NCBI RefSeq assembly: GCF_014467015.1
Contig: NZ_CP058559.1
Span: 1,488,001-1,552,000, forward strand
Source: Alkalicella caledoniensis
GTDB taxonomy: Bacteria; Bacillota; Proteinivoracia; Proteinivoracales; Proteinivoracaceae
Direction: 5' to 3'
DNA length: 64,000 bases
The stretch's first letter is position 1, and every line of letters starts with the position of its first letter. The position numbers and the translations under genes are program-made. Shown here piece after piece: positions 6,535 to 19,098 of this stretch. A model generated the notes under the pieces. The model was not told where the DNA came from. It saw nothing but the letters and a program-made list of their open reading frames with translations, and did no database searches.

Positions 6535-7827
6535 TTACTTTCCCCCGTGGGGAATTTTTATTGTAAATGTAGTCCCTTTTCCCTTTTCACTACTAATTCT
6601 AATTTTTCCTCCAATTACCTCAATGAATCTATAGCTTTTCATTAGACCTAGGCCAGTCCCTTGGCTTTTTAAAGAATAAAAAGGTGTTCCAAGTCGGGAT
6701 ATTTCTTCCTTAGTCATCCCTATGCCAGTATCAGTTATTTCTATAATTAGGTTCTTATTATCCTTGTAATTTTTTAGTGTAATTTTACCTCCAGACTCCG
6801 TTGCTTCTATACCATTTTTCACTATATTTACGAGAACTTGGGTGAGCTTATTTTTATCTGTGTATAGATAACAACCGAAATCAAGGTTTTTTTCAATTGT
6901 TATACCTTTCATCAAGGCATAAGAAGACATTATATTACGTATTGAATCCATAAGGAGAGACACGTTTATTACTTCTTCTTTTTCTATATACGGTTTTGCC
7001 ATAGATAAGAAGTCGCTTATTACTTGCTCGGCCCTATCTATTTCGTTTACAGCAGTTTCTAAGTATTCTTTTTGCTTATTTGATTCTAAGTTGGGATACA
7101 AACTTAGAAGCTGAATGAACCCCTTAGCAGCTGTTAGAGGATTTCTTACTTCATGAGCCAAGGATGCCCCTAGCTCTCCCACTGAGTTAAGTCTTTCTGA
7201 TCTTTGTAATTCGGTCCTCATATCATTTTTTTCAATAAAACCTTCCATTAGCCCTATGGCCATATATAGAGCTATCACAGTGGAAATATAATATATTACA
7301 AAAAAATTTATTAAACCCGTGATGGAGAAGTCAGCCTTGTTCATGTTAACTAAATAGGTTGATAAAAACATTATAATAAGGGCCACTGAAGATATATAAA
7401 AAGCTATCAATTTTTTTTGCTTTCTATGATAATCTTTAAACTTAGGCGATATGTATAACGATATAAGTACAACGAATGTGTATACAGCGAGCATAGTATA
7501 AAGCCCATCCCCTGATAGGTATAAGCGGTATATAAACATAACAGTAAAACTTACAAATATAGACATTTTCCCACCATAGAAGCCAGCGATTAACATGGGG
7601 ATTAACCTTAGATCAAAAATATGTCCATCAAATAAAGGGATAGGAAAAGTCATTGCCAATATTATTGATATGGATACTAGCAAACTAAGTTCAATATGAG
7701 TTATTTTTAATGATCGATAACCCTTTCTATCTAGGACTAGGCTCTCATATATAAAAAGAGGCAAAAATATGAGTGACGAGTTTAGCAATAGGCCCCTTAC
7801 AATTTCATCAATTTCGGAATAGGTCAT
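6535..7827 (-). CDS. Membrane sensor histidine kinase, 5TM-LYT plus HisKA type
   Basis: About 430 residues. The N-terminal 190 carry several membrane helices with the FDLRLIPMLIAGFYGGK segment typical of LytS/YhcK-type 5TM receptors. The kinase core has the H-box LAHEVRNPLTAAKGFIQLL, the N-box QVLVNIVKNGIEA and the G-boxes DTGIGMTKEE and GTGLGL. The single-dimerisation-domain layout resembles sporulation kinases that feed Spo0F; that link is inference, as no response regulator is adjacent. I chose ATG 7827 because AGGGAG sits just upstream; the longer reading from 7869 has no RBS and overlaps a likely -10 (TATACT). Confidence 0.85.
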   Translation of the reverse strand: MTYSEIDEIVRGLLLNSSLIFLPLFIYESLVLDRKGYRSLKITHIELSLLVSISIILAMTFPIPLFDGHIFDLRLIPMLIAGFYGGKMSIFVSFTVMFIYRLYLSGDGLYTMLAVYTFVVLISLYISPKFKDYHRKQKKLIAFYISSVALIIMFLSTYLVNMNKADFSITGLINFFVIYYISTVIALYMAIGLMEGFIEKNDMRTELQRSERLNSVGELGASLAHEVRNPLTAAKGFIQLLSLYPNLESNKQKEYLETAVNEIDRAEQVISDFLSMAKPYIEKEEVINVSLLMDSIRNIMSSYALMKGITIEKNLDFGCYLYTDKNKLTQVLVNIVKNGIEATESGGKITLKNYKDNKNLIIEITDTGIGMTKEEISRLGTPFYSLKSQGTGLGLMKSYRFIEVIGGKIRISSEKGKGTTFTIKIPHGGK

Positions 7828-7908
7828 GGGTTCATCTCCCTTAGATAGTAGTATAGCTCTGCGCATCATATTCTAGTATAACCCAATTTTAACATACCTT
7901 AAATTAGA

Positions 7909-8267: not shown

Positions 8268-9194
8268 CTACAGGCCACCTACAAAAGTGTCTATGATGCT
8301 TATAACCGCAGGCCCCAAAACAATTATAAAAATTGCAGGGAAAATAAAAAACACCAATGGAAACAACATTTTCACAGGGGCTTTCATGGCCTTTTCCCTA
8401 GCCATTTGTTTTCTTTTTTCCCTCAGGTTCGCTGCTTCTATTCTAAGGACTTTACCCATACTTACACCAAGGTCATCAGCTTGTATAATAGAATTTATAA
8501 AAAGGGTTAATTCTTCACAATCACAACGTTCACTCATATTCTTTAGAGCAATCTTCCTTTGAATACCCATTTTTATCTCTTTTAGAGTCTTTGAAAATTC
8601 ATCACAGAGGTCACCAGTAACTGTACTGACTACCCTTGCCATGGCACCATCGAAGGAGAGTCCTGCCTCTACACTAACTGTTATCAAATCTAAATTATAT
8701 GGTAGGTCCCTTAGTATGTTCTCTTTTCTCACTTCAATTTTTCTAGAGATATAGAAGTTGAATGTTACACTGGCAAGTGCCATTACAAGAACTGAAATGA
8801 ACAAACTCTTCAATAAATTAGGTTCAATACTATAAACTAGAAATGCCGTAATCATGGGTGAAAATAAGGTAACCATTCCCTTTGTGTACAACCACTTATC
8901 CTTGTTGTTATTTTTTATCAAGCCTGCCTTATCTAAGCGTTTATTAAGTGTTAAAAGATTACTACTTGGTGTAGCTTTAACGATCAAAGCAATGAATGCA
9001 AAATAAAGGGGTTTCAAAAGCCTTTCAGAAAAAGAGTCCTCTTTGTCCTCTGAACCTTGCTCACCACTATGTATTTCACTAATTTGTTGAATCCTTATGC
9101 CCATGCTTATTTTATCACCATAAAGGATGATTAAAGTACCATAGATTAACATAAAGATAGCTAAAAAAATACATAAAACAGCAAATGTTACCAA
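8268..9194 (-). CDS. tadC: Tad pilus inner-membrane platform protein TadC
   Basis: 308 residues, type II secretion F-domain family. There is an N-terminal membrane helix, a central cytoplasmic F domain (DLPYNLDLITVSVEAGLSFDGAM, LTLFINSIIQADDLGVSMGKVL) and two C-terminal helices (MLFPLVFFIFPAIFIIVLGPAV). With TadB it forms the membrane base on which CpaF drives pilin assembly. The start is TTG at 9194 with AAGGAGGG 6 nt upstream. It lies 13 bp after TadB. Confidence 0.87.
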   Translation of the reverse strand: MVTFAVLCIFLAIFMLIYGTLIILYGDKISMGIRIQQISEIHSGEQGSEDKEDSFSERLLKPLYFAFIALIVKATPSSNLLTLNKRLDKAGLIKNNNKDKWLYTKGMVTLFSPMITAFLVYSIEPNLLKSLFISVLVMALASVTFNFYISRKIEVRKENILRDLPYNLDLITVSVEAGLSFDGAMARVVSTVTGDLCDEFSKTLKEIKMGIQRKIALKNMSERCDCEELTLFINSIIQADDLGVSMGKVLRIEAANLREKRKQMAREKAMKAPVKMLFPLVFFIFPAIFIIVLGPAVISIIDTFVGGL

Positions 9195-9207: not shown

Positions 9208-10179
9208 TTACATCTTAATATCTACTATCTTTCTAATCATCCAAAAGCCCAGCATTTCACTGATTACCGAAGCAACTACCATAAATAATCCTATACTTGT
9301 TGTAAAAAGCATTGTTACATATTCTCTGTTTAACAAGAAAATTACTAGTCCTAAAAATATAGGTAGAGCTGCTACAATTCCCCCTGACAATTTACCTTGA
9401 GCGGTTAATGTTCTAAGCTCATTTTTAATTTTCTGCCTGTCTCTTATGGTTTCTGAGATGTTATCCAAAATCTCAGACAAATTACCTCCCACATCTTTTT
9501 GTATTACAATGGCATTTATAATAAGCTTTAAGTCTTCGGACTCCATTCTATTTGTCAAGTTTTTAAATGACTCTTCCTCTGAAAGTCCAAGACTCATTTC
9601 TTTAAGCAACTTTTTAAACTCCTTAGAAAACGGATCCGGCATCTCCTCTGTTACCACTGCCACTGCTTGTAAAAAAGAGTAACCTGCCTTAAGGGAATTA
9701 GAAATGATAGTAAGTCCATCATTCAGTTGATTGTCGAATTCCTTTACTCTTTCCTTCTTTTTAGAGGCTATTATATAATTTGGCACACTCCATGTGGCTA
9801 TAAATACAACAATTGCAAATATAAAGGTTTGGGACAAAATAAAACTCAGTGCCCCTAAGACTACTGAAGATATTACCCTAATAACAACCATTTCAGATAC
9901 AGTAATGGGTAAGTCTGCCCTCATCAGCTCTAGTTCAAGCTTTTTATTTTTCTTGTTATCAATGGTACTGGGAACTAGACCTGATAAAAATTTCAGACTC
10001 TGTTTTTTTTTCTTTTTAGATTTCTCTATAGTTTCTTGGATGTTATAATCCTCATCGAAATATTTAAGCTTATCAATGGCTTTTTTCTTACCGAAAACAG
10101 TAATAATGATTGCACTAAACAATGCCCAAATAAACAGAAAAATAAGAAGTGGTATTACGTAAATTATTTCCATTTTCAT
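9208..10179 (-). CDS. tadB: Tad pilus inner-membrane platform protein TadB
   Basis: About 323 residues, with an F domain flanked by membrane helices. The stretches FDNQLNDGLTIISNSLKAGY and INAIVIQKDVGGNLSEILDN are typical of TadB. It partners TadC. The start is taken at ATG 10179; GTG 10182 and ATG 10173 are possible alternatives and the RBS is weak (AGTGGGTG overlaps the start). It lies 17 bp after CpaF. Confidence 0.87.
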   Translation of the reverse strand: MKMEIIYVIPLLIFLFIWALFSAIIITVFGKKKAIDKLKYFDEDYNIQETIEKSKKKKKQSLKFLSGLVPSTIDNKKNKKLELELMRADLPITVSEMVVIRVISSVVLGALSFILSQTFIFAIVVFIATWSVPNYIIASKKKERVKEFDNQLNDGLTIISNSLKAGYSFLQAVAVVTEEMPDPFSKEFKKLLKEMSLGLSEEESFKNLTNRMESEDLKLIINAIVIQKDVGGNLSEILDNISETIRDRQKIKNELRTLTAQGKLSGGIVAALPIFLGLVIFLLNREYVTMLFTTSIGLFMVVASVISEMLGFWMIRKIVDIKM

Positions 10180-10196
10180 CACCCACTTTTTGTTTT

Positions 10197-11525
10197 TTAG
10201 CTAAAAATTTCTGATAATACTGTAATCCCTTGCTCTTTTAGTTTTGGAACAAACTTCGGCATAATACCTGTTGAGACGAACTCCCCTTTAACTTTCCCTT
10301 TATTGTCTATACCATTTTGCTCAAATCTGAATATGTCTTGTAGTATAATAACGTCGCCTTCCATACCCTGAACCTCAGTTATATGTGTTATCCTCCTGCT
10401 CCCATCTTGTAATCTTGACTGCTGAACAATTAAGTCTAGTGCCGATGCTACTTGGTCCCTGATGGCCTTTATGGGAAGGTTCATGCCAGACATCAGCACC
10501 ATTGTTTCAAGCCTTGAGAGCATATCCCTCGGTGTGTTGGCATGGCCTGTTGTAAGTGATCCATCATGGCCTGTGTTCATGGCCTGTAACATGTCTAACG
10601 CTTCCCCAGAACGAACCTCTCCTACGATTATTCTATCTGGGCGCATCCTTAGACTGTTTTTAACTAAATCCCTAATGGAAACTTCACCTCTCCCCTCTAG
10701 ATTGGGTGGCCTTGTTTCTAGTCTTACAACATGTTCTTGGGATAGCTGAAGCTCTGCAGCATCTTCAATGGTTACTATTCGCTCATCATTGGGTATAAAC
10801 GAAGATAATACATTTAGTGTAGTTGTTTTACCACTGCCTGTACCACCGGAAACGACTATATTTAGCCTACCCTCCACACATGCCCTTAAGAGTTCTGCCA
10901 TTTTTAAATTCATGGTTCCGAAATTCACTAGGTCATCGACCCTAAATGGGTCCTCAGCAAACTTCCTGATGGTAATGGACGGCCCATCTATGGCTAAGGG
11001 AGCTATTATTGCATTAACCCTCGATCCATTGGGGAGCCTTGCATCCACCATGGGGGAACTCTCATCTATCCTTCTCCCTATGGGAGCTACTATTTTTTTA
11101 ATAACATGTAGTACATGATTATTGTTCTTAAATTTCGCGTCTGACAGTGTAAGTTTACCTTCCCGTTCAACATAAATCTGTTCTGGGCCATTTACCATAA
11201 TTTCCGATACTTTCTCGTCTGCTAAAAGGCTAGTAATTGGTCCGAATCCAACGATTTCATCTAGCAATTCTTCCTTTATTTTCTTTTTTTGATTATTGGT
11301 CATATTTAGTGATTCTTGTTCTATATGCTTAGCAAGGATGAAATTCATCTGTTGCTTAAACTCATCATTTTGCTCAGTAATTTCATTAAAGTCAAAATCA
11401 AGTTCATCAATAACTCTGTTTTGAATGCGCATTTTTAGGTCAGAGTATGGGTCAGGCCCTTTTTCACTAGGTTTAAGTATTTTTTTATCTACATTTATTT
11501 CTTCTAATCTTTTTATTAAAGACAT
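10197..11525 (-). CDS. cpaF: Tad pilus assembly ATPase CpaF/TadA
   Basis: 442 residues, secretion ATPase of the VirB11/PulE superfamily. The N-terminal domain contains EIMVNGPEQIYVEREGKL; the ATPase core has the Walker A GGTGSGKTTTLN, the Asp box IVTIEDAAELQL, Walker B MRPDRIIVGEVRSGEAL and the His box HDGSLTTGHANTPRDMLSRL. It powers Flp pilus extension, and perhaps retraction, at the cytoplasmic face of TadB/TadC. All catalytic motifs are intact. Confidence 0.93.
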   Translation of the reverse strand: MSLIKRLEEINVDKKILKPSEKGPDPYSDLKMRIQNRVIDELDFDFNEITEQNDEFKQQMNFILAKHIEQESLNMTNNQKKKIKEELLDEIVGFGPITSLLADEKVSEIMVNGPEQIYVEREGKLTLSDAKFKNNNHVLHVIKKIVAPIGRRIDESSPMVDARLPNGSRVNAIIAPLAIDGPSITIRKFAEDPFRVDDLVNFGTMNLKMAELLRACVEGRLNIVVSGGTGSGKTTTLNVLSSFIPNDERIVTIEDAAELQLSQEHVVRLETRPPNLEGRGEVSIRDLVKNSLRMRPDRIIVGEVRSGEALDMLQAMNTGHDGSLTTGHANTPRDMLSRLETMVLMSGMNLPIKAIRDQVASALDLIVQQSRLQDGSRRITHITEVQGMEGDVIILQDIFRFEQNGIDNKGKVKGEFVSTGIMPKFVPKLKEQGITVLSEIFS

Positions 11526-11552: not shown

Positions 11553-12704
11553 TTAATAATTAAGCTGTTTGCACATGGTATCTAAGCTTTTCCAAACTTT
11601 TAATTTCTGATGTTTTGGGTTATCTGAATAAGGTTCCCCTTTATTTATAGAAGGAGTTACAATATTTTCTTCATGGGGTATCATTGCAAAAATTTCGTGT
11701 TTGAAAGCTTCCTGAACATCTTTTTTATCAATACCATAGCTTGTTGTGAATTTGTTTATAATAAGCTTAACCTTATCTTTGTCGTATCCAAGGGATTCCA
11801 TTACCTGCAAACCAAGCTTTGTGTTTTTAAGGGAAACGATTTCCATTGTTGATACAAAGAGAATTCTTTCAGAGTTATCTAATATATGAAGGGTTGTTTC
11901 GCTAAAATTTATACCTGTATCAATAATTATATAATCATAACTTTCCTGAAATACTTTTAAAATTTTCTCGATGCTCCCTAAACCAATAAATTCAACAGCT
12001 TCAGGTTTGCTAGGGGCAAATAAAATATCAAGGTTTTTGTTGTGTCCATAAAGGTAAGGCTTTATGTTCTCAAAAGATTCTACTTGACCATCATCTATAA
12101 CGTCGAGAATTGTTTTGGCATTATATTTATTTACCATCATTGATATATCTCCGAATTGCAAATCCATATCCATAAGTAAAACCTTTTTCTCATCATACTT
12201 GCTAAGTGTAATAGCACTATTTAATGCTAACACAGATTTACCAACTCCACCTTTGGAGCTAAAATAAGTTATTATCTTAGCATTTTTTGCCTCATCAAGG
12301 GTTGTGACTAGGTTTACACTTCTTGCCTTATTTTTCTCAAATGTCACTTTAATTGTCTCTAGCAAAGCATTATAATTAAAGGGTTTAACTATATACTCCT
12401 TTGCTCCGCAAAGCATTGCTTTTCTAAGGTACTCATTTTCCCCTTGAACTGACATTATGATAACTGTAACTGTGGGGAATTCGGTGGTTATCTTTTCAGT
12501 GGCCTCTAAGCCATTAAGTTTTGGCATGTTAATATCCATTAAGACCACATCTGGCTTTAGTCTAGGTATGAGCTTAAGTACTTCTTCACCATTATAGGCT
12601 TCACCGACAATCTCAAAGTTTTCTTGCTCTATATTCAATACTTTTCTTATTAAGTCAACGGTTTCTTTCATATCATCTGCAATTAACACTTTTATTCGTT
12701 GCAT
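11553..12704 (-). CDS. CpaE/TadZ-like ParA-type ATPase with N-terminal receiver domain
   Basis: 383 residues. Residues 1-125 are a response-regulator receiver with a complete active site (acidic pair Asp10/Asp11, phosphoacceptor Asp57, Ser85, Lys107). The rest is a ParA/MinD-like ATPase with the deviant Walker A KGGVGKS at 151-157, LLMDMDLQFGDISMM and YDYIIIDTG. CpaE/TadZ proteins place the pilus at the cell pole or locus; most carry a degenerate receiver, so an intact one is noteworthy. Its receiver is about 83 percent identical, by hand count over 126 residues, to that of the next gene upstream (12752-13699). Confidence 0.87.
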   Translation of the reverse strand: MQRIKVLIADDMKETVDLIRKVLNIEQENFEIVGEAYNGEEVLKLIPRLKPDVVLMDINMPKLNGLEATEKITTEFPTVTVIIMSVQGENEYLRKAMLCGAKEYIVKPFNYNALLETIKVTFEKNKARSVNLVTTLDEAKNAKIITYFSSKGGVGKSVLALNSAITLSKYDEKKVLLMDMDLQFGDISMMVNKYNAKTILDVIDDGQVESFENIKPYLYGHNKNLDILFAPSKPEAVEFIGLGSIEKILKVFQESYDYIIIDTGINFSETTLHILDNSERILFVSTMEIVSLKNTKLGLQVMESLGYDKDKVKLIINKFTTSYGIDKKDVQEAFKHEIFAMIPHEENIVTPSINKGEPYSDNPKHQKLKVWKSLDTMCKQLNY

Positions 12705-12751
12705 AGCCTCACTCCCCCAGTTGGATAGATACTAAAGTTGGGTCATTTCAA

Positions 12752-13699
12752 TTAAAGGTTAACACTTGGTCTGTGACCTTCAGTCAATTCTTCAATGCCA
12801 GTAATATTTGACTTAGTTTTGTTGATATCATTTTTATGTCTTATAACTAGTTTGAGCCTACCTATGTTTTCAGCTAGTACAATTTTTTCAACTTCATTGG
12901 AAGGTACAGATAAAGTAACAAAGATGTTGGTAAACTCTTTATCTATTCCTAGTACTTTAACATTTTGCAATATTGTTTTTGTAACTCCATATACCGATGT
13001 GCTTCCTTCAATATCACTAGGCAGATACATAATCACATCTACAAATTCCCCTGAACTTACTAGATTCGATACTCCTGATCCCCCATAAATACTTATAGAA
13101 ACTGCTCGAAAGCCTCTACCGATATAGTTACTTATCCCTTTATTGTAAGGGTTTGGGGAAGAATCAGTTTCCTCTATTTCACCTGGGTTCACTAAGTCAT
13201 AAGATTTATCATAGTTTTCCACTGTTTCTTCCTCTTCATGGCCATTACCATTACATAGATGGATGTCCAATTGTATGTTTTCAGCTTCAGTAAGTTGCCT
13301 CAACTCCACTTCCCTTATCTCTTTATTTTTCTCATATGTAGTCTTTATTGTTTCCAGCAAGGTATTGTAGTTAAAAGGTTTAACAATATACTCTTTTGCG
13401 CCACAAAGCATAGCCTTTCTGAGATACTCATTCTCCCCTTGCACTGACATAATTACAACAGAAATACCTGGGAAATCATTGGTTATTTTCTCCGTTGCTT
13501 CTAAGCCATTTAGAAGGGGCATGTTTATGTCCATAAGTATGATGTCAGGTTTTGAAGTTGGAATTAAATCCAACACTTCCTCACCATTTGCTGCCTCCCC
13601 AACAATCTCGAAACTGTCTTGTTCAATATTTAAAACCTTTCTAACTAAATCTACTGTTTCCTTAGTATCATCAGCAATTAACACCTTAATTTTGTCCAT
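12752..13699 (-). CDS. Chimeric receiver-domain/RcpC (CpaB C-terminal) protein
   Basis: 315 residues with an unusual layout. Residues 1-125 are a receiver domain with all phosphorylation residues (Asp10, Asp11, Asp57, Ser85, Lys107). Residues 126-190 are an acidic linker. Residues 193-290 (RGFRAVSISIYGGSGVSNLV, VTLSVPSNEVEKIVLAENIG) align with the C-terminal RcpC domain of CpaB in the next gene upstream. There is no signal peptide, membrane helix or SAF domain, so the RcpC part should be cytoplasmic, whereas in CpaB it is outside the membrane. Receiver similarity to the downstream gene and RcpC similarity to the upstream gene suggest a fusion after tandem duplication. The reading frame is open and has its own RBS (GGGGGAG, 18 nt upstream region), so it looks functional. 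Confidence 0.85.
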   Translation of the reverse strand: MDKIKVLIADDTKETVDLVRKVLNIEQDSFEIVGEAANGEEVLDLIPTSKPDIILMDINMPLLNGLEATEKITNDFPGISVVIMSVQGENEYLRKAMLCGAKEYIVKPFNYNTLLETIKTTYEKNKEIREVELRQLTEAENIQLDIHLCNGNGHEEEETVENYDKSYDLVNPGEIEETDSSPNPYNKGISNYIGRGFRAVSISIYGGSGVSNLVSSGEFVDVIMYLPSDIEGSTSVYGVTKTILQNVKVLGIDKEFTNIFVTLSVPSNEVEKIVLAENIGRLKLVIRHKNDINKTKSNITGIEELTEGHRPSVNL

Positions 13700-13726
13700 A
13701 GCTAGACACTCTCCCCCAACGATCTT

Positions 13727-14467
13727 CTATTCGTCATCCTCTACAATGCTATTCCCTGATTGTGAAGTTAAATCCCTCCAGTTTGTAACTTTAGATGGGC
13801 TATTACTATTCTCGTCCACAGGACGTAAAGATAATTTCAAGTTCCCTATATTTTCAGCTAGTACCAGTTTTTCCACGTCCTTATTAGGCACTGACAAGGT
13901 AACAAGAAAATTCCCTGGAATATTGTCCACATTTTTACTCTCATCCCTGTTAACTATTTGGTCAACGGCTAAAACTGTGAGGTTTTGCAATAGTATTTTG
14001 GACACATCTTGGTTTGCAATACTCTGATTTAAAAATACAATAACATCCACGTTGTCTAAAGGCTTTAATAGATACGAAACCCCTGAACTTCCTGTTAGGT
14101 TAATAGAGACCGCCCTATGTCCTGGGGGAATCCTAAAGCTCATGTCTCCCTGATGTTTATCAATAAGTTTAGAACTTAGGAAACCCTCGTTAACAAAGAT
14201 GGTTTCTTTTGTATATTTCCCAACTATGGCTTCAGAGTCTGATATGTATTGATTTAGTATAGACTCATCAGGAACATGTATTTCTTTTAACATGGCCCTA
14301 TCAACTCGGGTCCTTGGAGGTATTGTTTCAGTGGCCACATATACCTTCCTCATGTTTTCACTGTTAGAGGGTGCACTAAACGATTGTAAATACATATATA
14401 TTGCCCCTGCAGCTAGTATTGCTAAAATAAACGAAATCAGTATTAGTTTTCTTACGGTACCTTTCAT
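13727..14467 (-). CDS. cpaB: Flp pilus assembly protein CpaB
   Basis: 246 residues. Residues 8-28 are a membrane anchor, followed by a SAF domain (VATETIPPRTRVDRAMLKEI, residues about 44-105) and an RcpC domain (FRIPPGHRAVSINLTGSSGV to LVLAENIGNLKLSLRP). In Gram-negative bacteria CpaB works with the secretin; here, with no secretin gene, it probably scaffolds the pilus in the cell wall zone. It lies between tadG-like and the receiver/RcpC fusion gene in the same operon. Confidence 0.87.
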   Translation of the reverse strand: MKGTVRKLILISFILAILAAGAIYMYLQSFSAPSNSENMRKVYVATETIPPRTRVDRAMLKEIHVPDESILNQYISDSEAIVGKYTKETIFVNEGFLSSKLIDKHQGDMSFRIPPGHRAVSINLTGSSGVSYLLKPLDNVDVIVFLNQSIANQDVSKILLQNLTVLAVDQIVNRDESKNVDNIPGNFLVTLSVPNKDVEKLVLAENIGNLKLSLRPVDENSNSPSKVTNWRDLTSQSGNSIVEDDE

Positions 14468-14478
14468 GGTAACACCCC

Positions 14479-15372
14479 TTATTTTGAGAGTTTTACAGCA
14501 TAAGTGCCTGTATCAGGCGCATCCATATCTATAATTCCATTTGTTACATATCTTATAAAACGTCCTGTAATTTCTACTTTTCCACCTTTATTATGTACAT
14601 CCTCCACATAGAATTGTCCAAATCCCACAACCTGTATTTCACCTCTACCATTAACTTCCATGGTGTTAACCAGTGGTATAGTCCATAACCTTATGGTATC
14701 TCTTTCAAAATCATCAAAACTACTTACCTCAGAATTTATATAATTTTTTATATCGTTTGTTGCACCTGCCATATTTCCTGTTTCAGTTGGTATCCAGTCA
14801 CCTACTGATAAGGTTTTTGTAAAGCCAAAAAGGGCATTTTCCTTAAAGTTATTAGCCCCTGTGCCACCTAGTGCGATGGCTTTATAATTACCCTTATAGC
14901 CAGAGCCCGCATCAGCTTTCAGTATTATTTGGTCTCCATATACATAATCGAATATTTCTACTGCAAATGGTCTAACTCCCCCACGTACTGCCCCTACAGG
15001 TCCTATTATAGCCTTTGTATTTGCGGTAACATCGCTATCATCTATACCAATTATCGGTGCAAAGAAATGCTCCACATTCCTTAAACCTTTAATCTCTATA
15101 CTATTTGATGAAGTGATTATTTGTACTTCCTCTGGATCAACATTGTTTTTCTTTAGATACTCCAGTGCCACCATTTTTACTTTTTCCTCACCGTTATGAA
15201 TCTCAAGGGATGCAGCAAGGGCTGCAGAATCTAAAGCATTTGACAGCTTTGTGCGTTCTGAGTATGCAGATCCCACATCAACTACCAGTGCAGTGAACCC
15301 AAGTAAACCAGTAATAACGAAGCATAATAAAACAGCTGCACTACCTTTATTGTCTAATCTGAACTTAAACAT
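14479..15372 (-). CDS. TadG-like pseudopilin/minor pilus protein (Tad N-terminal domain)
   Basis: 297 residues. The N-terminus NKGSAAVLLCFVITGLLGFT followed by ALVVDVGSAYSERTKLSNAL is the Tad/TadG prepilin-like segment: one hydrophobic helix followed by the conserved DxGxxxxxRxxLxNAxDAAALA-type motif (here SNALDSAALAASLE). The rest is an extracellular beta-rich domain of unknown fold. It is expected to be a minor component that stabilises the Flp pilus. Confidence 0.82.
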   Translation of the reverse strand: MFKFRLDNKGSAAVLLCFVITGLLGFTALVVDVGSAYSERTKLSNALDSAALAASLEIHNGEEKVKMVALEYLKKNNVDPEEVQIITSSNSIEIKGLRNVEHFFAPIIGIDDSDVTANTKAIIGPVGAVRGGVRPFAVEIFDYVYGDQIILKADAGSGYKGNYKAIALGGTGANNFKENALFGFTKTLSVGDWIPTETGNMAGATNDIKNYINSEVSSFDDFERDTIRLWTIPLVNTMEVNGRGEIQVVGFGQFYVEDVHNKGGKVEITGRFIRYVTNGIIDMDAPDTGTYAVKLSK

Positions 15373-15384
15373 AATAAACCACCC

Positions 15385-15774
15385 CTATTCAATTCTCATT
15401 GAGGTCTGTGCATTAAGTTGGATTGCATTTCCGAACATTTTATTTATAATTGGTACAGTAAGAGGATAATTATAAACTATTTGTACTGTTAGAGGGTCCC
15501 CGGACTTTCTTGTTTCTTGACTTGGTGTAACATGTATAGTTAAGTTGCTCTCCTTTAGATTAGGAGAAGTACTCAAAATTCTATCTTTTATTTCTACATT
15601 GGTGCCTCCAACAATCCCCAGTCTTGCACCTTCCCTAGTGGCATTTTGAACTGCTAGAAATGAACTAAACATCATACCGAACTGGGCTATCCCCATAACT
15701 ATTAGCAAAATCAATGGTAGTATTATTGCAAACTCCACCAACGATTGCCCTTTTTGGTTTTTTAGTAGTTTCAA
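15385..15774 (-). CDS. tadE: TadE-family minor pseudopilin
   Basis: 129 residues. The start LLKNQKGQSLVEFAIILPLI has the prepilin cleavage context GQSLVEFA used by TadE proteins, followed by one hydrophobic helix and then FLAVQNATREGARLG. The start is TTG at 15774 behind GGGAGAGG. The CpaA/TadV prepilin peptidase in this locus probably processes it. Confidence 0.87.
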   Translation of the reverse strand: MKLLKNQKGQSLVEFAIILPLILLIVMGIAQFGMMFSSFLAVQNATREGARLGIVGGTNVEIKDRILSTSPNLKESNLTIHVTPSQETRKSGDPLTVQIVYNYPLTVPIINKMFGNAIQLNAQTSMRIE

Positions 15775-16088: not shown

Positions 16089-16277
16089 TTACTCTACTGT
16101 TCCACCTAGGCGGGCTACTATATCGCTAAATACATCTCCGATTGTTCCACCTAAAGTAAATAGTATTCCCATGGCTACTATTGAAACTAGTCCGATAATA
16201 AGTGCATACTCAACCATACCTTGTCCTTTTTCTTCCCTTACCTTTGATAAAAAGTAGTTTACGATAGTCATCATCAT
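16089..16277 (-). CDS. flp: Flp-type major pilin (62 residues)
   Basis: The sequence begins MMMTIVNYFLSKVREEKGQG and then MVEYALIIGLVSIVAMGILF. It has the classical Flp prepilin site and helix, with a short C-terminal tail. The start at 16277 is supported by GGGGGA at 16290-16285; an upstream in-frame extension lacks an RBS and overlaps the promoter. As first gene after the promoter it is probably the main pilin. Confidence 0.88.
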   Translation of the reverse strand: MMMTIVNYFLSKVREEKGQGMVEYALIIGLVSIVAMGILFTLGGTIGDVFSDIVARLGGTVE

Positions 16278-16311
16278 TTTAAAATCCCCCTTAGTTGTTT
16301 TTTGTAATTTC

Positions 16312-16377
16312 ATTATATTGCCTTTTGCTGTATTTGGGCAGATAGCAATGGTCATATATGCCAAGGTATATGGTCAT
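16312..16377 (-). promoter_or_regulatory. Flp promoter with two direct repeats (possible activator sites)
   Basis: On the minus strand a perfect TATAAT (16317-16312) lacks a good -35 box (TGCCCA). Upstream lie two copies of ATGGTCAT (plus-strand 16348-16355 and 16370-16377), 22 bp apart, or two helical turns. Their positions, about 47 and 69 bp before the expected start, fit an activator site. The DegU-like regulator gene lies next door. The assignment is inference. Confidence 0.5.
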
Positions 16378-16405
16378 AAAAAAGGCAAGGACCTAAGTCC
16401 TTGCC
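16378..16405 (-). terminator. Terminator of the DegS/DegU-like operon
   Basis: Perfect arms GGCAAGGAC (16384-16392) and GTCCTTGCC (16397-16405), then a T-run on the minus strand. It separates the regulators from the pilin promoter. Confidence 0.85.
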
Positions 16406-16408
16406 TAT

Positions 16409-17071
16409 CTATTGGTTTCTTTTGTATTCTTCTATATTGTTCTCTAGGGCGAATATGGTTGCCTGAACCCGATCATCAACATTTATTTTTCTAAAAAGGC
16501 TGGTGGCATAGTTCTTAACGGTTTTTTCTGTAAGAAACAACTTACTTCCTATTTCCTTGTTACTTAGTCCCTTTGATATATTGCACAGAACTTCCATTTC
16601 TCTTTTTGTAAGATTTTCAAAGGTCCCATTACTTTTTTTACCATTCCCCTGTATGTTAGAAAAAAGCAAGGAGACCAAAGTTTTATCTATATATTTTTCC
16701 CCTTCGGAAACAGCCCTAATTGCATTTATTATCTCTGTACCTGCAGTATCCTTTAAAACATATCCATCAGCCCCAATATCAATGGCTGTATGAATTGTCT
16801 TCCTATCATTTTCAATGGTCAGCATAATTACTTTTATATCTGTTTTATCCTTAACATTTCGTAGTACCTCAATACCACTTATCATTGGCATGTTTATATC
16901 TAGTAAAATAACATCGGGAGATGTTGCTTTCACTAACGCTAAAGCTTTCTCACCGTTTTCAGCTTCTCCACATATATTAAGACCTTCCTGAAAGCTTATT
17001 ATTGTCTTTAACCCTTGTCTAATTATGTCGTGATCATCGGCAATTAGAACATTAATCACCTCTTTTTTCAT
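16409..17071 (-). CDS. NarL/DegU-type response regulator
   Basis: 220 residues. The receiver has the acidic pair (IADDHD), phosphoacceptor Asp in LLDINMP, Thr in MLTIE and Lys in LKDT. The C-terminal LuxR-type helix-turn-helix is FENLTKREMEVLCNISKGLSNKEIGSKL (split over residues about 148-175). It overlaps the kinase gene by 20 nt, so they are coupled. It probably controls the adjacent pilin promoter. Confidence 0.87.
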   Translation of the reverse strand: MKKEVINVLIADDHDIIRQGLKTIISFQEGLNICGEAENGEKALALVKATSPDVILLDINMPMISGIEVLRNVKDKTDIKVIMLTIENDRKTIHTAIDIGADGYVLKDTAGTEIINAIRAVSEGEKYIDKTLVSLLFSNIQGNGKKSNGTFENLTKREMEVLCNISKGLSNKEIGSKLFLTEKTVKNYATSLFRKINVDDRVQATIFALENNIEEYKRNQ

Positions 17072-18233
17072 CCCTTATCACCTCTCTATTTATAGGAAGT
17101 TTAACAGAGTAGCTTGTTCCGCTACCATTTGAGGATTTTATCTTTATCTCTCCTTGTAATTGGTTGACCCTATCTAATATCCCAATGAGTCCATAGGAAG
17201 TACCCTTGGTTTTTACTTTTTTAAATGTACCTTCAACATCAAACCCTACACCATCATCTGTAACAACTAGCATGAGATACTTTGTACCAAAATCTAGTTT
17301 AACTTCAACATTTTTGGCCATGGCGTGTTTCCTAATGTTGTTAAAAATTTCTTGAACAATGCGATAAACTGCCACTTGAATTATTGGTTCTATGTCTACT
17401 TGAATTGGCTTTAGCCTTAAATCCACTTTTATTTTTGTCTCATGGGTAATAGACTTTATTGTTTCTTGGATTGTTTCGTTTAGGCCAAGATCATCTAGGG
17501 TCATAGGTCGCAAGTCAAAAATAATGTTTCGAACTTCCTTTAGTGCTACCTTTACACTCTCTTTTAAATCTTCCAACTCACCGAGGCCCTTATCCAGGTC
17601 CTTTTGTATTACCATCTTACATATATCTACTTTCATTATGGTATTGGCCATATGCTGGGCTGGACCATCATGTACATCCCGTGCGATTCGCTTTCTCTCA
17701 TTTTCTTGAGCTTCTAGAATCTTTATCCCTAAAAACATTTCGGAGTTTTTGTCCGCGTCTTCTAGCACTGAAAGTATATCCCCCTCAAGGTATCTTAGGG
17801 CAATACTTATTTGGTTAACAACTTGCTCCGCGTTTTTAATATTTTCCATAGCTTTCCTTAATGCCAGCTCAACACTTGATCTCCTCTTTAGAAGTTCTTT
17901 TTCTTCATTTCTTTTGGTTATGAACCTTATTCTTGTATTTTCAGCTTCTTCATAGGCTGCTTTTATATCCTTCTCAGTGTAAATAGTAAAGTTCTTTGAA
18001 ACCTCCGCGAGCCTCTGTCGCATCTGCTTATCGTATTTTTCAAGGTGATCCACTTCATTGATAGTATCAAATATTTGCCCTTTTATAACGTTTAACTCAT
18101 TTTTTAGGCTTTCCTGCTCTGACCTGATATTATCAACTATATTAACTATACTATTTCTACTAGAACCTATTTCCTCTGTTATTTTTCTAATTATATCGTT
18201 GATGGCACGAAGGTCTAAGTCAGTATTTTTCAT
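17052..18233 (-). CDS. DegS-type cytoplasmic sensor histidine kinase
   Basis: 393 residues with no membrane helix. The N-terminal 180 are coiled-coil like the DegS sensor. The HisKA_3 box is ERKRIARDVHDGPAQHMANT with the phosphoacceptor His, followed by an ATPase domain (YRIVQEIFNNIRKHA, DDGVGFD, YGLIGILDRV). It should phosphorylate the NarL-type regulator encoded downstream. It might also serve the two receiver domains fused to Tad proteins, but HisKA_3 kinases usually pair with NarL-type partners, so that is speculative. Confidence 0.87.
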   Translation of the reverse strand: MKNTDLDLRAINDIIRKITEEIGSSRNSIVNIVDNIRSEQESLKNELNVIKGQIFDTINEVDHLEKYDKQMRQRLAEVSKNFTIYTEKDIKAAYEEAENTRIRFITKRNEEKELLKRRSSVELALRKAMENIKNAEQVVNQISIALRYLEGDILSVLEDADKNSEMFLGIKILEAQENERKRIARDVHDGPAQHMANTIMKVDICKMVIQKDLDKGLGELEDLKESVKVALKEVRNIIFDLRPMTLDDLGLNETIQETIKSITHETKIKVDLRLKPIQVDIEPIIQVAVYRIVQEIFNNIRKHAMAKNVEVKLDFGTKYLMLVVTDDGVGFDVEGTFKKVKTKGTSYGLIGILDRVNQLQGEIKIKSSNGSGTSYSVKLPINREVIRDEKRGD

Positions 18234-18265: not shown

Positions 18266-18856
18266 TTATACAGCAAGATAAGCAATTAAGCTCCCAATGG
18301 CTAAAAAAGGACCAAAGGGTATATGATCTTTTCTTGATTTTAATCTTAATAGAAGTAGTATTGTACTTATAATAGCTGCCACCATAAAAGCAAAAATTAT
18401 AGCATATACAGTTTTAGTTACCCCTAGAAATATTCCCACTGCAAACATCATTTTAACATCTCCGCCACCCAATGCATTTGGCACCATGGCCAATAATAAT
18501 AGCAATGTTCCTCCTGTAAACATCCCTAAAATTGCATTTAAAGGGGAAACATCACCGATAAATACTAGTACTAGCCCCCAAAGAATAGTAGCCAAGACTA
18601 ACTTATCGGGAATAATACGATGTTTTATATCTACGAAGGAAATTATTATTAATAAAGACATAAACAAAGTTGTTTTTAGGAACATTAGACTGCTTCCATA
18701 TTTTAAATAAGAAATAACAAATAAAAGTGCTGTAACAATGATAATTGATAACTTGAATCCTTTTTTACCAACAGAAATACTATCTGATATTGTGCTGGTT
18801 ATCTTGCTTAGGAAATATCCAGCTACAATACCTAATATTAAAACTAATAGATACAT
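18266..18856 (-). CDS. cpaA: Prepilin peptidase TadV/CpaA
   Basis: About 196 residues, A24 aspartic peptidase with about six membrane helices. The two catalytic Asp are in FVDIKHRIIPDKL and GGGDVKMMFAVG. It cleaves the Flp pilins and TadE-type proteins of this locus. The start at 18856 follows a strong GGGAGGAGAGGA site. It is first in the regulator operon, before the DegS-like gene. Confidence 0.88.
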   Translation of the reverse strand: MYLLVLILGIVAGYFLSKITSTISDSISVGKKGFKLSIIIVTALLFVISYLKYGSSLMFLKTTLFMSLLIIISFVDIKHRIIPDKLVLATILWGLVLVFIGDVSPLNAILGMFTGGTLLLLLAMVPNALGGGDVKMMFAVGIFLGVTKTVYAIIFAFMVAAIISTILLLLRLKSRKDHIPFGPFLAIGSLIAYLAV

Positions 18857-19098
18857 TCCTCTCCTCCCTTCTAAGTATTTGCAATATCTTTGTAATTTAA
18901 GAGATATTATAATTGATTTAACGTGATAATACACTAGTACATTGGGCTAGTGATGAAGAGAATAAATAGCTACTATATATAGTTATTTATTCGAAATAGT
19001 TTTTAATAGTTTGGGGGTGGCAGGACTAATTACCTACAAAAAATGCAGGGTCTCTATATAAAAAATACCTAGTTCAAGTTTTGATTCATCTTCCTACA

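Follow-up and report, generated by a model that had tools for sequence, protein, structure and literature searches.

The stretch of the Alkalicella caledoniensis genome analyzed here (64,000 nucleotides of contig NZ_CP058559.1; hereafter, the window) carries a Tad pilus locus on its minus strand, with the genes in the order flp, tadE, tadG, cpaB, a gene for a protein that joins a receiver to an RcpC domain, REC-cpaE, cpaF, tadB, and tadC. The fusion gene (12752..13699, minus strand, as are the other features given with such coordinates) has an ATG start and an open reading frame of 315 amino acids, and is separated from cpaB by 27 bases and from REC-cpaE by 47 bases. cpaB (13727..14467) encodes a transmembrane helix, a SAF (D1) domain, and an RcpC (D2) domain, as judged from Pfam, TIGR03177, and hydropathy, while REC-cpaE (11553..12704) encodes a receiver followed by a ParA/MinD-type ATPase (Pfam, NCBIfam). 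On the cpaB side lie the genes for a TadG-like protein (14479..15372, PF13400), the minor pilin TadE (15385..15774, PF07811), and the Flp pilin (16089..16364, PF04964). Past REC-cpaE are the genes that we take, from knowledge of their families, to encode the CpaF motor ATPase (10197..11525) and the platform proteins TadB (9208..10182) and TadC (8268..9194). Beyond flp, we found genes for a DegU-like response regulator (16409..17071) and a DegS-like histidine kinase (17052..18233), both identified by Pfam, and for the prepilin peptidase TadV (18266..18934, PF01478). A terminator-like hairpin with a 10 bp stem and a T run (16383..16406) divides degS-degU from flp onward, and no terminator-like site was found on the minus strand between cpaB and cpaE. 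A second histidine kinase, whose membrane part is of the 5TMR-LYT type, is encoded directly past tadC (6535-7869).

A Pfam scan of the fusion protein returned two domains, Response_reg (PF00072) at residues 6-118 (E 2.4e-27) and RcpC (PF16976) at residues 189-287 (E 1.3e-16; score 60.9 bits, cut-off 28.8), and no other, an ATPase match included. Neither PF08666 nor a local SAF profile matched, and only a degenerate trace of this domain could be discerned in the linker. Based on Pfam, alignments, trees, and the predicted fold, we divide the protein into a receiver domain (residues 4-122, 13334..13690), an acidic linker (residues 126-188, 13136..13324) with a net charge of -12 over residues 126-187, an RcpC (D2) domain (residues 189-291, 12827..13135), and a C-terminal tail (residues 292-315, 12755..12826). 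The linker is probably disordered: residues 125-183 were predicted to be so in a full-length model, whose low confidence (pTM 0.38) restricted its use to linker disorder and the C-terminal helix. No transmembrane segment was detected, the maximum 19-residue hydropathy being 0.95 compared to 2.41 in the neighboring CpaB, which has a membrane helix at residues 8-26; at its N terminus, the fusion has a receiver where CpaB has its membrane anchor. We infer, on good grounds from the sequence, that the fusion protein is located in the cytoplasm. It also passed the TIGR03177 CpaB model (NCBIfam; 75.4 bits, cut-off 71), with residues 186-294 as the only matching part, so that automatic annotation would label it CpaB even though it has no anchor and no SAF domain. 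Lacking both, it is not a CpaB, and lacking the ATPase, it is not a CpaE. The first-pass annotation, made without database searches, had described a complete receiver at residues 1-125 and neither a membrane helix nor a SAF domain, in agreement with these results.

The fold of the C-terminal half was predicted from an alignment of 48 sequences, giving a model with a core pLDDT of ~95. Its best Foldseek match was 9gzr, the RcpC protein of Pseudomonas aeruginosa (E 5.7e-8), which superposed with Z 13.4 and an rmsd of 2.9 over 116 residues, compared to Z 6.3 for the runner-up; 9gzr was also the sole PDB chain recovered by a profile search (E 2.6e-22). The Foldseek rows below RcpC (Z ~6) were not accepted as relatives, and two mixed alignments for structure prediction (A1 and A3) that placed RcpC on the receiver were discarded. 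Residues 189-291 thus have the RcpC fold, close to the span (193-290) that the first-pass annotation had aligned with the upstream cpaB product, and the resemblance to that product which it had noted amounts to 46-48% identity over the RcpC domain. A predicted structure other than RcpC over that span would, by its own account, have refuted it; this outcome was not observed.

In P. aeruginosa RcpC, the D2 domains assemble into a C12 ring and the D1 domains pair into six dimers; oligomerization depends on the L3 region that follows D2, and the eta4 loop of D2 inserts into D1 (PMC12307814). We took the 13 D2 residues of interfaces 3 and 4 in that work (PMC12307814) as ring contacts and mapped them through the 9gzr alignment, so that they derive from a distant protein (25-27% identity). 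The fusion and the adjacent CpaB are identical at 11 of these 13 positions, whereas the remaining 99 aligned columns include 40 identities (Fisher p = 0.003), and the excess held in a conservation-stratified test (p = 0.003), with small counts and an alignment that was inspected before counting. Among the matches are N278 and K283, ring residues that are unusual for the family; the same CpaB has only 6 of the 13 residues in common with one relative's CpaB (L023). The stretch that contains the eta4 loop, on the other hand, is shorter in the fusion (12 residues) than in any other of the 70 aligned RcpC domains (18-40 residues in the remaining 69), and a short predicted helix (residues 302-306) in the tail occupies the place of the L3 helix. 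The loss of D1 and of the loop that contacts it, together with the retention of D2-D2 contacts, is what would be expected if the domain still self-assembles, and the RcpC half may therefore make the fusion oligomeric. Part of the RcpC interface is contributed by D1, and D2 plus L3 is not known to form a ring in the absence of D1.

The receiver half retains all of the catalytic residues (D10, D11, D57, S85, and K107). The codon for the predicted phospho-acceptor, Asp57, lies at 13529..13531, and every CpaE receiver in the alignment has an aspartate at this position. Protein identity to the receiver of the downstream cpaE was 82-83% (102/124), essentially the figure that the first-pass annotation had obtained by hand count (about 83%, 104/126). 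In the receiver tree, the fusion and its own cpaE are sisters (support 99/96), with the receivers of G417 and G405 as next relatives. The alpha4-beta5-alpha5 face is identical to that of the CpaE receiver at 32 of 35 positions, compared to 70 of 89 elsewhere. Since the branch leading to the fusion receiver (0.09) does not exceed the CpaE branch (0.14) in length, both domains appear to be constrained, either by a partner that they have in common or by one another. We ruled out recent gene conversion as the source of this similarity, because most of the domain shows saturation at synonymous sites.

In an in situ model of the Caulobacter machine, the CpaF hexamer is surrounded by six CpaE dimers, and the proposed dimer-dimer contacts probably run through the receivers (PMC13170226). 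The evidence from sequence and structure prediction supports the view that the fusion is a cytoplasmic protein in which an acidic linker connects a phosphorylatable CpaE-type receiver to what is predicted to be the ring-forming D2 half of CpaB. A receiver nearly that of CpaE, the lack of an ATPase, a tail that would self-assemble, and a cytoplasmic location are together best read as the marks of a partner that docks on the CpaE ring. We tentatively propose, at somewhat less than even confidence, that the protein is a duplication-born, oligomeric, phosphorylation-tuned partner whose receivers dock onto their near-identical counterparts on CpaE, arranged in a ring around the CpaF motor. Phosphorylation of Asp57 would set this docking, the donor perhaps being the DegS-like kinase, a candidate on account of its gene association, or the adjoining 5TMR-LYT kinase. 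Docking may then adjust CpaE ring assembly or CpaF activity, with the fusion serving as a scaffold or a brake. A more specific version, which we consider rather doubtful, is that the RcpC half forms a 12-fold ring in the cytoplasm, whose twelve receivers would match the six CpaE dimers and make a phosphorylation-switched collar on the pilus motor. A 12-fold assembly would equal the twelve CpaE receivers in number, which may be no more than an attractive coincidence; if the collar exists, a ring module has been moved across the membrane by gene fusion.

The intact catalytic residues and the nearly complete preservation of the CpaE receiver surface could also reflect a phosphate sink, in which the receiver vies with DegU and the CpaE receiver for the phosphoryl groups of the locus kinase while the RcpC half is a passive stabilizer. 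A DegS-like kinase is present not only in this locus but also in 57 of the 106 CpaE-containing loci that were retrieved, in Bacillota and Chloroflexota. A single-domain receiver would suffice for such a role, however, and the sink leaves unexplained why the ring contacts were kept and the D1-contact loop was lost; we consider it unlikely.

We searched for the fusion in other genomes. RcpC matches were present in 193 of 398 Bacillota genomes sampled and in 36 of 247 in the order of the nearest relatives. No second example of the fusion was found among the ~230 other RcpC-bearing genomes sampled, none of which was a second species of the genus and only part of whose RcpC genes were opened, so that a single-match genome with an unopened locus could still hide the fusion as its only RcpC gene. 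Our genome has just two RcpC domains, those of the fusion and cpaB, and among the 60 genomes with at least two matches (our own included), it alone has two separate matches within about 3 kb. None of the ~100 RcpC open reading frames opened outside our genome contained a receiver, nor did any of 16 further long or weak RcpC cases, the long frames having been opened as candidate fusions. The Tad loci opened in the order of the nearest relatives, a comparison that the first-pass annotation had suggested, contain cpaB and REC-cpaE as separate genes and no fusion. Several loci seemed to give end-to-end matches to the fusion in a contig scan, but on opening they turned out to be adjacent, separate cpaB and REC-cpaE genes. 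Plasmid records yielded no fusion, and searches of an open library of papers for RcpC in combination with a receiver or response regulator turned up no account of such a layout, consistent with the earlier statement that no protein of this kind was known.

Several variants were seen in the course of these comparisons. In a genome of the same family (G002), cpaB is ordinary, and the receiver of the cpaE that follows it (L130:9528-10733) is degenerate, lacking the acidic pair and the phospho-acceptor Asp. In a metagenome-assembled genome of Tepidibacillus decaturensis (L021:6384-7595), the CpaE receiver and ATPase are in separate open reading frames, perhaps due to an assembly frameshift, and in isolate Z9 (L026) they are in one. 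A 631-residue frame in L133 (G308:C1:1828500-1832500) has an RcpC match with no SAF domain or receiver detected, and G417 carries two closely related Tad loci (L151 and L186) on different contigs.

The gene lies between cpaB and REC-cpaE, and the first-pass annotation had proposed a tandem duplication of cpaB-cpaE followed by an internal deletion. Our analysis strongly supports this origin, with a deletion that ran from the Walker A region of CpaE into the SAF domain of CpaB. In a test constrained by position, linker residues 127-152 were collinear with the CpaE sequence that leads to Walker A (p = 0.011), as were residues 153-188 with the end of the CpaB SAF (D1) domain (p = 0.003), which puts the parental junction near residues 150-155; free local alignment of the linker to the parents was not significant (p ~0.07). 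The same ribosome-binding site, TGGGGGAG, precedes both receiver genes (13711..13718 for the fusion and 12712..12719 for REC-cpaE). In the RcpC tree, the fusion half was grouped with its own cpaB and the cpaB genes of G417 and G405, and a sister pairing with its own cpaB was not rejected (p-AU 0.35). Both the fusion and its own cpaB are missing a LysM (peptidoglycan-binding) tail that the nearest relatives have at the C terminus of CpaB (found by Pfam in L020, 1656-2663, and L023, 5659-6669, and by eye in L151, L152, and L186).

A competing account of the origin is that the RcpC half came from a divergent cpaB copy of another lineage, to which a receiver was attached, with no local duplication or deletion. 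The tree does not settle whether the two RcpC halves are sisters, and an RcpC identity of 48% is on the low side when the receivers are 82% identical: in species pairs with 78-88% receiver identity, which are not independent of each other, the median RcpC identity was 68%. The value nevertheless falls inside the range of these pairs (40-89%), and the pairing with the own cpaB that was not rejected, the common lack of the LysM tail, the collinear linker traces, the place between both parents, and the matching ribosome-binding sites all argue against independent assembly, which we regard as distinctly unlikely. Duplication, followed by a deletion with one end inside the first cpaE and the other inside the second cpaB, is the simplest account of the fusion.

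The event is not recent, and in this respect the original proposal needs amending. The fusion and cpaE receivers have a pS of 0.87 and a dN of 0.13, and such synonymous saturation at 82-83% protein identity indicates an old event and strong constraint on the receivers since then. For the RcpC half and the neighboring cpaB, dN was 0.57 and dS about 2.6, and the branch of the fusion (1.25) was about twice as long as that of cpaB (0.64). This faster divergence of the RcpC half and the occurrence of the gene in one genome only would suit an evolutionary leftover with no present role. However, the gene has an open frame, its own ribosome-binding site, and an intact active site, its receiver has not diverged faster than CpaE's, and in both halves synonymous change far outruns nonsynonymous change, so that a leftover is improbable. 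The saturated synonymous sites at this level of protein identity show that the fusion is under purifying selection and is not debris. The first-pass annotation had counted restriction to a single strain, combined with a lack of expression, against its own reading; the gene was indeed found in this genome only, yet it bears the signs of long purifying selection.

The cytoplasmic location that the first-pass annotation had proposed for the protein is well supported, but its suggestion of a phosphorylation-controlled decoy or partner of CpaB fared less well. Contacts between RcpC domains in the cytoplasm, for example with newly made CpaB before export, would be in keeping with the 11 of 13 ring residues matched in the own CpaB, including N278 and K283, but common descent and self-assembly also predict this match, and we consider such a role highly improbable since CpaB has an N-terminal membrane helix and an RcpC domain outside the membrane (PMC12307814), so that the two would be expected to meet rarely. 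CpaE, which has nearly the same receiver and is in the cytoplasm, is the likelier partner.

The fusion clearly exemplifies the making of a new protein from two flanking genes and its maintenance by selection long after the event, and in it an extracytoplasmic structural domain (PMC12307814) was apparently moved into the cytoplasm. As a natural CpaE-type receiver without the ATPase, it could be used to probe what the CpaE receiver binds and whether phosphorylation controls the Tad motor.

When compared to known systems, the fusion resembles CpaE/TadZ of Tad pili in its receiver and in the trace leading to Walker A, but has an RcpC domain instead of the ParA/MinD-like ATPase. With CpaB/RcpC of the Tad alignment complex (9gzr), it shares the D2 fold, the ring-contact residues, the C-terminal tail, and a pass of the TIGR03177 model; unlike CpaB, it has no transmembrane helix or recognizable SAF/D1 domain, its D1-contact loop is shortened, and it carries a receiver and is predicted to be cytoplasmic. 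Like two-component response regulators, it has a canonical receiver with all of the residues for phosphorylation, but its output is an RcpC domain rather than a DNA-binding or enzymatic one. The fusion is a new architecture assembled from known Tad parts.
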